Shown in pieces: positions 44,745 through 50,226 of a stretch of DNA of 64,000 bases (its first letter is position 1; each line of letters opens with the position of its first letter). The stretch is from Thermoproteota archaeon (GTDB taxonomy: Archaea; Korarchaeota; Korarchaeia; Korarchaeales; Korarchaeaceae), in contig JAOZGC010000002.1 in the NCBI GenBank assembly GCA_027491915.1, forward strand, positions 62,001-126,000, read 5' to 3'. Below the pieces are notes generated by a model, which worked only from the letters and a program-made list of their open reading frames with translations, did no database searches and was not told the DNA's origin. The position numbers and the translations under genes were made by a program.

Positions 44745-46022
44745 TTGCCTCCCCAGAGAGCCGTCTATGCGGAGGACTACGGAACGTCTTACTTCAAATT
44801 CGGCCCCGTCTGGATAGGGAAATACCCGGAGATGGTAGAGAACAGGGGCTACTTTCCAAAGATATCCAAGGCCGTGGCTGAGATAAGGGGGATCGAGGCC
44901 AGGACCGTCGTGGTAGGCCCCGAGGTGTCGAACTACCTGGAATCCAGGGAAGAGTTGAGAAGGTTATACTATCCAATGCGAAACGGAGTTATCGATAGAG
45001 ATGATAGAAATGGGTGGTTAATTGTTAAAGAATTGACGAGATATGGGCTCAAGAAATTCGCCCCCGTCGGCCGCGAGTCACCCATCGGTCCCTTCGACGG
45101 CTTCTACGTTGTGGCCGCCCTGGCGGCCCAAGCCCCGAGGTACATGTACGAAGAAATCTTCTCGATACACGAGGAGATAAATTCTGAGGAGGGTGGATCT
45201 CTGGTGAAGGCCGTCACCATAATTCCGCAGCCCCTGGCGGTCGCGATAGCTGAGAAGGCCACCACCTGCACGGTCTTGGAGGCCGGCCACGGGAACACCC
45301 AAATAACCCCAATAAGCAGGGACGTCATAAGGTCGGCTCTGATACCTCTCAACCGCGGCGGCGCCGACTCGAACGCCATAACCGCCCAGATATTGAAAGA
45401 TCTTGGCTACGGAAACCTGGCTCGGGAAGAAAAATTCGTCAGGATCTTCAAGGAGATGGCCGGCCTCGTCCCGATAAACCTCGACGAGGCGGTAGAGTGG
45501 GCGAAATCCCATCCGGGCTCCCTCACGAGCTCTTTCACCGTGCCGGGAACCACCGTCAAGGTCGACATGGGGGAGAAGGCCTGGCAGCGCTTCCTGATAG
45601 GGGAGTACTTCTTCAATCCTGGCCACGAGATGTTTGAGAGCTACTATTCGGTGGGATTCACTCCCCCGAGGGACACCGTCCTGCCGGGGGAGACCATCCC
45701 GGGAGACGTTTCCCTGGCCGAGGCCATCCTCATGGCCGTGCGTAAGACACCCGTCGAGATACAACCCGGACTGCTCAGTAAGATCCTCCTATCCGGAGGG
45801 GCCTTCGGCTGGAGGGTGCCAGCTGGCCTGGAGGGAATAGCAGCCGACGCGACCCAGAAGCTGGAGACCATGCTCAGATCCCTTGGCGTGTCGACCTCCC
45901 CGAAGATGGTGGCGGAGCCCCAGTTCTCCGTGTGGCGCGGCTCGATGGTCTACGGACTGTACCTACCCGAGAGGCTCAGGTGGAGCTGGAAGAGCATGGA
46001 AGGGTGGCATCAGATAAGTTGA
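44745..46022 (+). CDS. Crenactin (archaeal actin)
   Basis: A 425-residue actin homologue. The phosphate-1 loop is DYGTSYFKFGP near residue 11, phosphate-2 is LEAGHGNTQITPIS near residue 178 and the adenosine loop is ILLSGGAFGWRVP near residue 346. IIPQPLAVAIAEKA, LNRGGADSNAITAQILKDLGY, in pieces, and EPQFSVWRGSMVYG closely follow known crenactins. It probably forms helical filaments for cell shape. The start is TTG 44745, not supported by any strong ribosome site. The 3' end overlaps DUF72 by 13 bases. No arcadin-like partner is visible nearby. Confidence 0.93.
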   Translation: MPPQRAVYAEDYGTSYFKFGPVWIGKYPEMVENRGYFPKISKAVAEIRGIEARTVVVGPEVSNYLESREELRRLYYPMRNGVIDRDDRNGWLIVKELTRYGLKKFAPVGRESPIGPFDGFYVVAALAAQAPRYMYEEIFSIHEEINSEEGGSLVKAVTIIPQPLAVAIAEKATTCTVLEAGHGNTQITPISRDVIRSALIPLNRGGADSNAITAQILKDLGYGNLAREEKFVRIFKEMAGLVPINLDEAVEWAKSHPGSLTSSFTVPGTTVKVDMGEKAWQRFLIGEYFFNPGHEMFESYYSVGFTPPRDTVLPGETIPGDVSLAEAILMAVRKTPVEIQPGLLSKILLSGGAFGWRVPAGLEGIAADATQKLETMLRSLGVSTSPKMVAEPQFSVWRGSMVYGLYLPERLRWSWKSMEGWHQIS

Positions 46023-46753
46023 CGATCTAGGACCATCTTCCTGAACTCTAGGGCGTTGTTCCACATGTCCATATTGTTAAAGAGTACGTAGGCTTCTTTT
46101 TTGTTCATTTTTTCTAATTTACCCAACAAATCCTGAAATTCTTGAGTTGAATATGAATATTTATATAAAATTTTTCCATCCTTTCTCCCACCGTGTAGCC
46201 TGAAATAGGCCAAGTCTGAGCCGTCCAGAGGCCTCCGGTAGAAGGGATCCACGACGTGAATTAAATCCAGGTCGTCTAGGAGTCTGATGAGGCCGCGCTC
46301 GTCGATCCACCAACTCTCGTCTCTCGGTTCCCACCCAACCGCGAGCCCTCCCCTATCCAGAGATGAGAAGAAATCTCTCAGATCCCTCTCCGTGAGATCC
46401 GATCTCCTGAACGACGGTGGGGACTGGAAGATCACTATCTTGGAGCCCAACTTCGCCGCCACGACCCTCACCATCTCCCAAGCGGTGAAATTCCCCTCGG
46501 TGGGCCTGAGCATCCCACAATCCGCGCAATCTATTCCGGCCTTCCGCCACACCGGTCCCCCGGGGCGGTGGGTTATGGCCGCCCAGGCCTTCAACGTGTA
46601 CTCAAAATCCTTCGGCGACTCCTTCCTCCATCTCTCCACGGTCGACGCGCGGGGGATCCGGTAGAATGTACGCTGAATTTCCACCAGACCGAATTCCCTG
46701 AAATACCTCTTCCTGGAGGTCGGGAATCCGCAGCAGCCTACCTTCACCCTCAT
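46010..46753 (-). CDS. DUF72 (YecE-like) protein
   Basis: A 247-residue TIM-barrel-like DUF72 protein of unknown reaction. VGCCGFP at the start, FYRIPRASTVERWRKESPKDFEYTLKAW, in pieces, and AYFRLHGG and VLFNNMDM near the end are family hallmarks. The ATG at 46753 was chosen over an earlier ATG at 46768 because MRVKVGCCG is the usual opening. A stretch near 46080-46180 is markedly AT-rich. It is convergent with crenactin. Confidence 0.87.
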   Translation of the reverse strand: MRVKVGCCGFPTSRKRYFREFGLVEIQRTFYRIPRASTVERWRKESPKDFEYTLKAWAAITHRPGGPVWRKAGIDCADCGMLRPTEGNFTAWEMVRVVAAKLGSKIVIFQSPPSFRRSDLTERDLRDFFSSLDRGGLAVGWEPRDESWWIDERGLIRLLDDLDLIHVVDPFYRRPLDGSDLAYFRLHGGRKDGKILYKYSYSTQEFQDLLGKLEKMNKKEAYVLFNNMDMWNNALEFRKMVLDRQLI

Positions 46754-46811
46754 CGGGCGTCTCAACATACCACCCTTAATACCAGATGAGGTGCGCCCTC
46801 CCAGATGGCCT

Positions 46812-47828
46812 ATGGACCTCCCCTCAGAGGTCTACGAGATAGCCCGTGATATACGCGACATGAAGATCAGGGGAGCCGGTAGAATAGCCAGGGCGGCCGC
46901 CAAAGCTCTCCTGAAGGTGGCGCGGGAATACGAGGCCAAGGACGCGGATGATCTGGTTTCTGCGCTGCTGAGGGCATCTAAACTGCTCGTTGAGACGAGG
47001 CCGACCGCGGTCTCCCTGCCCAACGCCCTCAGGTACGTCGTGGTTAGGGTGCTGGAGGGGGTCGATAGGGGGTACGATCTGAGTGGCATAAGGGAAATCG
47101 CGTCAAAGGCTGCCGAGGAATTTACTGAGTTTTCAACACGAGCGGTCGAATACATCTCAAAATTTGGCTCACACAGGATCAGAGACGGTGATCTGATAAT
47201 GACCCACTGCAACTCGGACGCGGCGATCTCCACCCTGATACAGGCCTGGGAGGAGGGGAAAAGGTTCGAGGTCCTGGCCACCGAGACGCGGCCCAGGTTT
47301 CAGGGGAGGCTAACAGCCGCCAGGCTGGCGGATGCCGGAATCCCAGTGACCCTGATAGTGGACTCGGCGGCCAGGTACTTCATGGAAGACGTCGACGCCG
47401 TGATCGTCGGGGCGGATGCCGTCGCGGCCAACGGAGCCGTGGTGAACAAGATAGGAACCTCTTCCATAGCCCTGGCGGCCCACGAAGCCAGAGTTAACTT
47501 CTTCGTCGCGGCCGAGACCTACAAATTCTCTCCAGAGACCATGCTCGGTTCCCTCATAAGGATAGAGGAGAGAGATCCGTCCGAGGTGGTGGACCGTGAT
47601 TTCCTGGCCGCCCACCCGAACGTCAAGGTTAGAAATCCGGCCTTTGACGTGACTCCTGCGATGTATATAGACCTGATAATAACCGAGAAGGGAGTCATTC
47701 CACCCAGCGCCGCGGTGATAATACTGAAGGAGGAATACGGGTGGTTCACGAGGTCCAGGCTCCCAGAGTTTCTCACAGGCGGGTTGGGGTCGGCCAGGAT
47801 AGAGGAAGACTCCCCCACCACGGCCTGA
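46812..47828 (+). CDS. Ribose-1,5-bisphosphate isomerase (eIF2B-related)
   Basis: A 338-residue protein of the eIF2B alpha/beta/delta superfamily. IRGAGRIARAAA, ETRPTAVSLPNALRYVV, IMTHCNSDAAIST (catalytic Cys), VDSAARYFMEDVDAVIVGADAVAANGAVVNKIGTS, in pieces (catalytic Asp in GAD), and NPAFDVTP match R15P isomerase. It turns ribose 1,5-bisphosphate into ribulose 1,5-bisphosphate in archaeal AMP salvage. ATG 46812 is preferred; GTG 46791 is also in frame. It faces, two bases away, a RuBisCO-like gene. Confidence 0.92.
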   Translation: MDLPSEVYEIARDIRDMKIRGAGRIARAAAKALLKVAREYEAKDADDLVSALLRASKLLVETRPTAVSLPNALRYVVVRVLEGVDRGYDLSGIREIASKAAEEFTEFSTRAVEYISKFGSHRIRDGDLIMTHCNSDAAISTLIQAWEEGKRFEVLATETRPRFQGRLTAARLADAGIPVTLIVDSAARYFMEDVDAVIVGADAVAANGAVVNKIGTSSIALAAHEARVNFFVAAETYKFSPETMLGSLIRIEERDPSEVVDRDFLAAHPNVKVRNPAFDVTPAMYIDLIITEKGVIPPSAAVIILKEEYGWFTRSRLPEFLTGGLGSARIEEDSPTTA

Positions 47829-47830
47829 GA

Positions 47831-48925
47831 TCACGGCCTGTACCCCCATCTCTCTAGGGCTATCCTCAGATCCTCGCTCACTTTTGCAGCCTCTAAAACA
47901 GTCTCTCCCCTCAAAAAAGCGTCTATCGCCTGCCTGATTGCTGAGATCCCACTTTCCTCTCCGTTCGGATGGAGCCATGGAGAGTCCGGCATTATTAGTA
48001 CTTCCTCAATAGAGTTCTCCAGATTAGATTCCACGGTTCCAGGGTGGATCGCCCCCTGTATCACCGGCATGGACTTCCCGATCCGGTCCTCAGAGGTCAG
48101 CGCGTTCACGGCCCGCCTGAATTCCCAAACATCCGTCCCGTTCCCAACCGCCGGAACTCCCACCATGCTGCCGCCGAGCAGCCTGGCCAGGCGGCACCTG
48201 GCCGGAGGAGACAGGCCCTCCGTCTCCCTACCGTAGACGAAAATGGGGACCGCACCGAGATTCCTCCTGAACTCCAAGAGCCCCATCCAACCTCCATATC
48301 TGAGAGAGAAGCCCAGCAGCCTCGCTCCAGAATCCATGGCTCTATTGGCGTTTTCCACCGCCTTCCACCCTGACACGTTCACCACGTAGTCCACCCTACG
48401 CCCGGTCTCCTCTCTGACCCTGTCTCTCATGTCGGCAATATGCGACGACCTGGCGCTTACCTCATCAGGCTTGACCAGCCAAGGGGGATCTACTCCGACG
48501 TCCAGGCCCCTGAGGGCAAGCTCGTAGAACCTGCGCCCCACATCAGCCGGGGCCGCGCCCGGAGGAAGTCTGATGTGGGAGGCTACTCCCGGGCCCCTCA
48601 GCCCCAGTTCCCTGGACAGGTCGATCAGCCCAACCCCGGGCCCGCCGAGGCGGGATTCGACGTCGGGGGGAACCTCGAAGTCGTTCACCATCCCCACCCG
48701 GGTCAAGTCACCGAGCACCCCTATCAGGGCCTGCTCTCCCAAATCCCGGAGGATCTCAGGCGGCAGTCGTATGGTGATCCTATCACCGTGGGTTTCTACC
48801 CTTCCCCCCATGAAAGAGGCCCACTTCTCCGCCATCTCCACGGAGTCGGAGATAGAGACCGACCCGGTCAGGTTCACCTCTATTAGTATCGTCCGCCCCG
48901 AATCCGACCCAGCCAGCGGGGCCAC
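47831..48925 (-). CDS. Highly diverged RuBisCO-like protein
   Basis: A 364-residue protein with the RuBisCO large-subunit order: an N domain ending GPGVGLIDLSRELGLRGPG, then a barrel with YELALRGLDVGVDPPW, RREETGRRVDYVVNVS-like text, GAIHPGTVES and LHPNGEESGISAIRQAIDAFLRG. Catalytic sites look lost: the KPK region reads IRLPP (117-122), the KDDE region reads GVDPP (144-148), the loop 6 lysine is Asn262, the SGG serine is Gln290 and the GGG phosphate site is PDS (313-315). Start GTG 48925. It diverges from the Clp1 gene and converges with R15P isomerase. Confidence 0.72.
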   Translation of the reverse strand: MAPLAGSDSGRTILIEVNLTGSVSISDSVEMAEKWASFMGGRVETHGDRITIRLPPEILRDLGEQALIGVLGDLTRVGMVNDFEVPPDVESRLGGPGVGLIDLSRELGLRGPGVASHIRLPPGAAPADVGRRFYELALRGLDVGVDPPWLVKPDEVSARSSHIADMRDRVREETGRRVDYVVNVSGWKAVENANRAMDSGARLLGFSLRYGGWMGLLEFRRNLGAVPIFVYGRETEGLSPPARCRLARLLGGSMVGVPAVGNGTDVWEFRRAVNALTSEDRIGKSMPVIQGAIHPGTVESNLENSIEEVLIMPDSPWLHPNGEESGISAIRQAIDAFLRGETVLEAAKVSEDLRIALERWGYRP

Positions 48926-48975: not shown

Positions 48976-50226
48976 GTGCCGGTGGAATTAGACCTGGACC
49001 CCGGAGAGGGCCTGCTGGTGAGAACGCCGTGCTATCTCTCGATGGCCGGCGGCGACGTGGACGTCTGGGGCCTACCCCTGGAGGGAGGCCAGCTTAGGAT
49101 AGGAATCCCGGAGCTCACCCTCCTTGTGACCGCGCGCTCTCGAACGACGCTGAGACTGGAGGCGGTCGGCCACAGGATCGTGAGGAACCCAATACCTGAG
49201 GAGTGGTGGTCGGCCGCCGAGAAGGCCAGGGATGCGGAGAGGGTAGTCATACTGGGCGAGACCGACTCTGGGAAGAGCGGGCTTCTCTTCTACCTGGCGA
49301 ACGTCCTCTCCATATCGGGACTGAGGGTGGGAATCGTGGACTCTGACCTGGGCCAGAAGGACCTGGGCCCTCCGGCCACCGTGGCGGCGGCCGCCTTCGC
49401 CTCGCCGCCCCTCCACCCCGGCCTAGCCGAGCCGGAGTTCCTGTACTTCGTCGGAGATACAAGTCCCAGGGGGCACCTCCTTCAAGTGGTCGCCGGGGTG
49501 CGCTCATCTCTGGATTACCTGGGAAGACGCCCAGACGTCACCCTAGTAAACACCAGCGGGTACGTCTCCGGGAGCGCCGCCCGGGCGCTGAAGTATCACA
49601 AGCTGGAGGTGATCAGGCCTGATCTGGTCTTCGTAATCGGCGATCGGGGAGAGGTCTCCCACTTGCCGAGGGTGATTCCCCCAGGTCCGGAGGTCCAGAT
49701 CCTGCCAGGTCCTCCGTCCATAATCAAGAAAGACCGGTCCAGGAGATACGCCGTCAGGAGGGCCAGGTGGATCCGCTACCTGTCGGGCGCCTCTGAGACT
49801 AAAGTGGATTTCTCTGAGGTCAGGGCACTCGGAACCCTCCTCTTCACCGGAAGGCCGTCTCCGGCGGCAGCCTCGTTGGCGTCGGATCTTATCGGGAGGG
49901 AGATTAACTACCTGGAGATCTCCCCGGACGTAGTCTCCATCTTGGTCGAGGGGGGGCTCTCTAGGGCGGAGATCAGGGCACTCGCCTCGTCTTTCGGGGT
50001 TGAGGTTCGTGCCGCCGCGCCGTCCTCCTACGACGGCCTCCTGGTGGGTCTCATGTCTGAGACCGGAGGCTGTTTGGGTCTGGGACTGCTGTCGGACCTC
50101 AATCCAGGTGAGATGAGGGGTTCCGTGATCTCCAGGGTAAAGAAGTTCGCTTATGTTAAATTCGGATACATAAGACTCTCCAGATCCTTGGAGGAGATCG
50201 GGAGGAGGGAGGTGGCCGCACCGTGA
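48976..50226 (+). CDS. Clp1-family polyribonucleotide 5'-hydroxyl kinase
   Basis: A 416-residue Clp1/Nol9-type kinase that phosphorylates 5'-OH RNA ends. It has a beta-rich N domain, a Walker A (LGETDSGKSGLLFYLAN), a DSDLGQKDLGPP motif and a lid/clasp-like TSGYVSGSAARALKYHKLEVI region, in pieces. RNA end processing is also represented by rtcA at 43017. Start GTG 48976. Its stop overlaps the next start. Confidence 0.9.
   Translation: MPVELDLDPGEGLLVRTPCYLSMAGGDVDVWGLPLEGGQLRIGIPELTLLVTARSRTTLRLEAVGHRIVRNPIPEEWWSAAEKARDAERVVILGETDSGKSGLLFYLANVLSISGLRVGIVDSDLGQKDLGPPATVAAAAFASPPLHPGLAEPEFLYFVGDTSPRGHLLQVVAGVRSSLDYLGRRPDVTLVNTSGYVSGSAARALKYHKLEVIRPDLVFVIGDRGEVSHLPRVIPPGPEVQILPGPPSIIKKDRSRRYAVRRARWIRYLSGASETKVDFSEVRALGTLLFTGRPSPAAASLASDLIGREINYLEISPDVVSILVEGGLSRAEIRALASSFGVEVRAAAPSSYDGLLVGLMSETGGCLGLGLLSDLNPGEMRGSVISRVKKFAYVKFGYIRLSRSLEEIGRREVAAP

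Follow-up and report, generated by a model that had tools for sequence, protein, structure and literature searches.

Introduction

The closest described systems are the archaeal form III RuBisCOs (TIGR03326; the T. kodakarensis enzyme, 1geh and 3a12, and the P. horikoshii enzyme, 2cwx) and the form IV proteins, non-carboxylating paralogs with the RuBisCO fold such as MtnW (2oek and 2zvi), the RuBisCO-like protein of C. tepidum (1ykw) and OiaX. According to a 2023 review, RuBP-like substrates and conserved catalytic steps are common to the RuBisCO-like proteins characterised so far (PMC10176493). A genome study of the Korarchaeia states that all genera encode the conversion of nucleic-acid pentoses to glycolysis intermediates, via AMP-R15P-RuBisCO III or DeoC; as far as RuBisCO is concerned, it mentions the AMP-R15P-RuBisCO III route alone (PMC10667645). 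We found no literature linking a RuBisCO-like protein with Korarchaeota, and a prior description in subscription papers is possible.

Here we describe a RuBisCO-like protein encoded in a 64,000-nucleotide stretch of a korarchaeal genome, hereafter the window, together with its orthologs. An earlier note, made from the letters of the window, had read it as a RuBisCO relative with an eroded active site next to ribose-1,5-bisphosphate isomerase (R15Pi). The features under discussion are collected in Table 1.

Table 1. Genes of the locus and altered active-site segments of the RuBisCO-like protein (window coordinates; equivalents in spinach numbering)
Feature	Position	Strand	Remark
Actin-like protein	44745..46022	+	Slowly evolving anchor of the conserved locus
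DUF72 protein	46010..46768	-	Same-strand overlap of its start with the end of the RuBisCO-like gene in g4
R15Pi	46791..47828	+	Ancestral neighbour, facing the RuBisCO-like gene tail to tail; lost in g4
RuBisCO-like protein (subject)	47831..48925	-	364 aa; GTG start; no internal stop
P313-D314-S315	47981..47989	-	GGG of the second phosphate site; Asp at 313 in 15/16 orthologs
Q290-G291-A292	48050..48058	-	Phosphate-site S379-G380-G381; G380 alone kept
Residues 254-265	48131..48166	-	Strand 6 and former loop 6 (H327...K334)
V145-D146-P147-P148	48482..48493	-	K201-D202-D203-E204 (carbamylated lysine, Mg ligands), end of strand 2; D202 sole survivor
R119-L120-P121	48563..48571	-	K175-P-K177, end of barrel strand 1; both lysines gone
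GRC3/CLP1-like polynucleotide kinase	48976..50226	+	Divergent neighbour; remains where the RuBisCO-like gene is lost

A RuBisCO fold outside the described forms

Profile searches, a PDB sequence search, and AlphaFold with Foldseek all agree with the RuBisCO fold and domain order that the earlier note had proposed, and the GAIHPGT and RQAIDA segments on which it drew are present. In Pfam, RuBisCO_large matched the C-terminal quarter alone (E 1.1e-8). The nearest NCBIfam profiles were form III RuBisCO (TIGR03326, 1.2e-17) and MtnW (1.8e-16), with scores about one tenth of the respective cut-offs: 63.9 bits against an equivalog cut-off of 497 for TIGR03326, and 51.8 and 59.7 bits against 513.6 and 409 for the MtnW profiles TIGR03332 and NF007095. 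The top match in the PDB sequence search was the archaeal form III RuBisCO 6hun (2.2e-19), and a PHROGs search gave no match. The AlphaFold model, built with 13 orthologs, reached a pLDDT of 88.6 and a pTM of 0.88. It comprises the N-terminal alpha/beta domain and C-terminal TIM barrel of the RuBisCO superfamily, and its top Foldseek matches were form III RuBisCOs and RuBisCO-like proteins (best E 2.5e-25, TM about 0.7-0.84). The same fold was obtained for a second ortholog, taken from a genome without RuBisCO. The predicted RuBisCO fold of the protein is beyond doubt.

The family resembles form III RuBisCO in fold and domain order, and the two have in common the HPG, HPxG and C-terminal WG motifs as well as the conserved R159 and Y180. 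The family members are shorter, however (333-406 residues versus about 425-445), and lack the catalytic, metal and loop-6 residues, with both phosphate sites altered. The closest sequences are three archaeal form III RuBisCOs (G060, G336 and G091), which score 220-230 bits against the least diverged orthologs. They share YSPIEERV-like and HPGxxxxN segments with the family but, unlike it, keep the catalytic residues.

Loss of the active site

The active site was compared in an alignment of the window protein and 15 orthologs with about 50 canonical RuBisCOs and several RuBisCO-like proteins, using spinach numbering. In the window protein K175, K177 and K201 are replaced by Arg, Pro and Val, respectively, and K334 is absent or Thr. 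The metal ligands D203 and E204 are both Pro, and H294, R295, H298 and H327 have become Tyr, Gly, Thr and Gly. At the phosphate sites S379 is Gln, G381 is Ala, and the GGG of the second site is P-D-S. What is kept is D202, G380 (the middle residue of SGG), H383, H409 and P410, whose roles are structural or unclear. The alignment thus bears out the losses at KPK, KDDE, loop 6, SGG and GGG that had been noticed by eye, with the difference that D202 and G380 are retained.

These changes extend to the family. K201-D203-E204 as a set is gone in 16 of 16 orthologs, the E204 position being Glu in two g2 sequences, and all 16 are without K334 and carry changes at both phosphate sites. The same residues are intact in the roughly 50 canonical sequences aligned. 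Among the residues expected of form III (K175, K201, D203, E204, H294, K334, SGG and GGG), the window protein has none except G380. It is a RuBisCO homolog lacking the carboxylation residues, as form IV in the broad sense implies. The metal triad of characterised form IV proteins is nevertheless missing: K201 and two acidic ligands persist in the aligned form IV sequences (MtnW, OiaX and relatives, a Vibrio protein and a further archaeal type), whereas the family has lost them. Even the Vibrio RuBisCO-like protein, with E204D, keeps K201. By its residues, then, the protein is a RuBisCO-like protein in the broad sense, which fails the tests of both form III and characterised form IV. Another archaeal RuBisCO-like type, represented by L246 (G026:C21:47999-49009) and common to L235-L237, L239-L242 and L247, carries Cys, Met and Val at positions 177, 295 and 327, respectively, and groups near MtnW.

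Given the established mechanism, a protein with no carbamate lysine, metal ligands, loop-6 lysine or intact phosphate sites would not have RuBisCO- or MtnW-type enolate chemistry available to it, and the catalytic steps described in PMC10176493 would not be possible in the same way for the Korarchaeia family. Form III RuBisCO and MtnW are the closest profiles, and one could imagine a working RuBisCO or MtnW-type enolase whose catalytic residues have been relocated. Such a protein is scarcely credible, since no lysine is conserved across the 16 orthologs, which means that the catalytic lysines are not hidden at other positions, while the metal triad is gone in all 16 and both phosphate sites are changed. 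The suggested reaction on a related sugar phosphate is likewise unlikely, given that each of the 16 orthologs has changes at both phosphate sites.

Locus, distribution and the RuBP pathway

The conserved gene order is RtcA-MGMT-actin-DUF72-R15Pi-RuBisCO-like-GRC3-glycerate kinase-TRAM-TrmB, where the names other than R15Pi, RuBisCO-like and DUF72 are putative and were assigned by reading the sequence. For contig scans the actin-like anchor was used as an alignment, which gave matches where the single protein gave none. The same locus is found in Candidatus Methanodesulfokora washburnensis, which identifies the organisms as a Korarchaeia family; its habitats are hot springs and vents. R15Pi lies two bases from the RuBisCO-like gene, as the earlier note had it, and looks intact (434 bits against the TIGR00511 cut-off of 314). 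The start given there, 46812, falls on an ATG in the same frame, 21 bases into the gene from the start at 46791. The two genes stand tail to tail, and their convergent orientation makes a single operon impossible.

In a survey of 24 genomes of the family, the RuBisCO-like gene was present at the same locus in 16 and gone in seven; in G022 the locus falls at a contig edge. No remnants were found in the gaps of the genomes without the gene, so that the losses appear clean at the sensitivity used. Further orthologs were not found among the 394 genomes searched, where other matches reached at most 214 bits versus at least 348 bits for the family; inspection of the highest-scoring of these matches showed intact RuBisCOs. 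In the locus tree genus g4 is nested within the family, and the RuBisCO-like gene is ancestral, with about three losses.

The window genome has, apart from this gene, a complete normal form III RuBisCO (G000:C4:339k), which answers a check that the earlier note had suggested, and AMP phosphorylase. R15Pi scoring over the cut-off, canonical RuBisCO and AMP phosphorylase co-occur in the same eight of 24 genomes (genera g1, g2, g3 and g5), the AMP phosphorylase of G010 being cut by a contig end. AMP phosphorylase is doubled in the window genome, with both copies outside the window and over the cut-off (G000:C4:201544-203052 and 633009-634475), and also in G001, G002, G005 and G006. All three pathway genes are absent from the 16 genomes of g4 (16/24), in contrast to the statement of PMC10667645; nine of these 16 have the RuBisCO-like gene. 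Since g4 is nested, the RuBisCO-like gene predates the loss of the RuBP pathway in this genus and survived it. Conversely, G004 has R15Pi and RuBisCO and lacks the RuBisCO-like gene. Protein and pathway are therefore separable both ways.

In every non-g4 genome with the RuBisCO-like gene, the window genome and six others, R15Pi adjoins it; R15Pi is an ancestral neighbour, lost in g4. This adjacency, together with the possibility in principle that a RuBisCO-fold subunit could form mixed dimers, would suit a protein that regulates the resident RuBisCO or R15Pi, or serves one of them as a structural partner. Such a role is quite improbable. The pair is convergent; nine g4 genomes have the protein without RuBisCO, R15Pi or AMP phosphorylase and hold it at a dN/dS of 0.05-0.14; and G004 does without the protein. 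The regulatory explanation is thus largely refuted already, and the functional tie to R15Pi and RuBP that the earlier note had drawn gives way to a tie that is positional only.

Selection on the family

Close ortholog pairs in the sister genera gave dN/dS values of 0.05-0.19 (Nei-Gojobori), the g4 pairs, with no RuBisCO pathway, lying at 0.05-0.14. These values are comparable to those of DUF72 and GRC3 and higher than those of the actin-like protein and R15Pi. The family is under clear purifying selection.

The window copy is less easily placed, as its genus, g1, is represented by one genome whose only dN/dS comparisons are near saturation. It is among the most diverged members, with a terminal branch longer than any other in the family (about 1.6 changes per site), and does not have the E256, R257 and Asp313 common to most orthologs. 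Against G005 its dN/dS is 0.56, with dS near saturation. Together with the roughly three gene losses in the family, these features might indicate a gene losing its function in the window lineage. We regard such decay as very improbable: the open reading frame is full length, the fold is confidently predicted, the other family-invariant residues are kept, and the ratio of dN between the RuBisCO-like gene and DUF72 is similar in other inter-genus pairs. The intact frame, confident fold and invariant residues suggest that selection acts on the window copy as well, and for the family as a whole the idea of a relic is rejected by the purifying selection in the sister genera.

Origin and relatives

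In a tree that included the closest archaeal form III sequences, the RuBisCO-like family formed one group (100/98). An origin as a local copy of the resident korarchaeal RuBisCO was rejected with these sequences included (AU p = 0.0014), whereas an earlier, poorer sampling had not rejected local duplication (AU p = 0.19). The archaeal form III subgroup with Cys at 177 was rejected as the sister of the family (AU p = 0.00015). Long branches remain a reason for caution. The canonical RuBisCO of g2 (L052:8609-9937 in G005; L051 in G001) groups with sequences of other archaea (L024 and L025), apart from the korarchaeal RuBisCOs, which suggests replacement by transfer.

A second RuBisCO-like protein occurs in the same family of organisms, in G017 (L050:4470-5705, minus strand, G017:C9), a genome without RuBisCO. 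It has a similar HxGNIEAN segment and may branch near the present family (86/92, one tree). Unlike the family, it keeps K175, K201-D-D-E, H294-R295 and SGG; K177 is lost, the loop-6 lysine is Ser, and the C-terminus is partly lost or rewritten. A sister genome has a broken fragment resembling this type (L061, G016:C11:3672-3896, minus strand) with a stop codon and short frames, apparently a decayed copy.

Possible functions

The protein was kept after loss of the RuBisCO pathway, and most likely the RuBisCO fold has been reused in this Korarchaeia family for a different purpose. The family would represent an old, Korarchaeia-specific RuBisCO-like branch that retained the N-terminal domain and TIM barrel and gave up the Mg2+/carbamate enolate chemistry. 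It would have no part in the AMP-R15P-RuBP-RuBisCO pathway, for which the window genome has a complete set of other genes.

Then, what could the fold be used for? One answer is a true enzyme with a new site, metal-independent or with a differently bound metal, at strands 2, 6 and 8, whose substrate would probably be no bisphosphate. Asp or Glu at 146 is found in 16 of 16 orthologs, Arg257 and Asp313 in 15 each and Glu256 in 13, where canonical RuBisCOs have D202, Val/Ile, Gly and H327 at 146, 257, 313 and 256, respectively. In DSSP assignments of both models, 146, 256-257 and 313 coincide with, or directly follow, the C-terminal ends of strands 2, 6 and 8, on the rim that bears the RuBisCO site. 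The window copy, however, reads G-V-P at 256-258, where the orthologs mostly have E-R-P, and Pro at 313, followed by an Asp at 314; in g3, residue 256 is Ala. An enzyme of this kind, though less likely than not, is the main rival of the binding role favoured below. Its full version, a wholly rebuilt active site with an Asp/Glu-Arg-Asp rim, without Mg-carbamate or bisphosphate sites, that carries out a non-enolate reaction in Korarchaeia, is rather doubtful.

We favour a binding role over the enzyme, since the window copy does not retain the pocket set and other parts of the protein have conserved residues too, such as the polar R339-G-E341 of the orthologs outside the pocket. N301 had also been considered as a family-specific residue and was rejected, as the close archaeal form III sequences have it too. 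The family would then stand outside RuBP metabolism and without Mg-enolate chemistry, as a putative pseudoenzyme whose altered barrel mouth and conserved surfaces would bind a small ligand or a partner protein; we hold the chances of this reading to be about even. DUF72 could be such a partner, given its same-strand overlap in g4. It persists in genomes without the RuBisCO-like gene and is missing from the g3 locus, which makes it a weak candidate at best.

Implications

The label "RuBisCO" on such Korarchaeia genes would falsely imply CO2 fixation. A selected family that lacks the metal triad and has outlived the RuBisCO pathway would demonstrate that the fold lends itself to a fundamentally different use, and its orthologs form a defined set in which to learn how.
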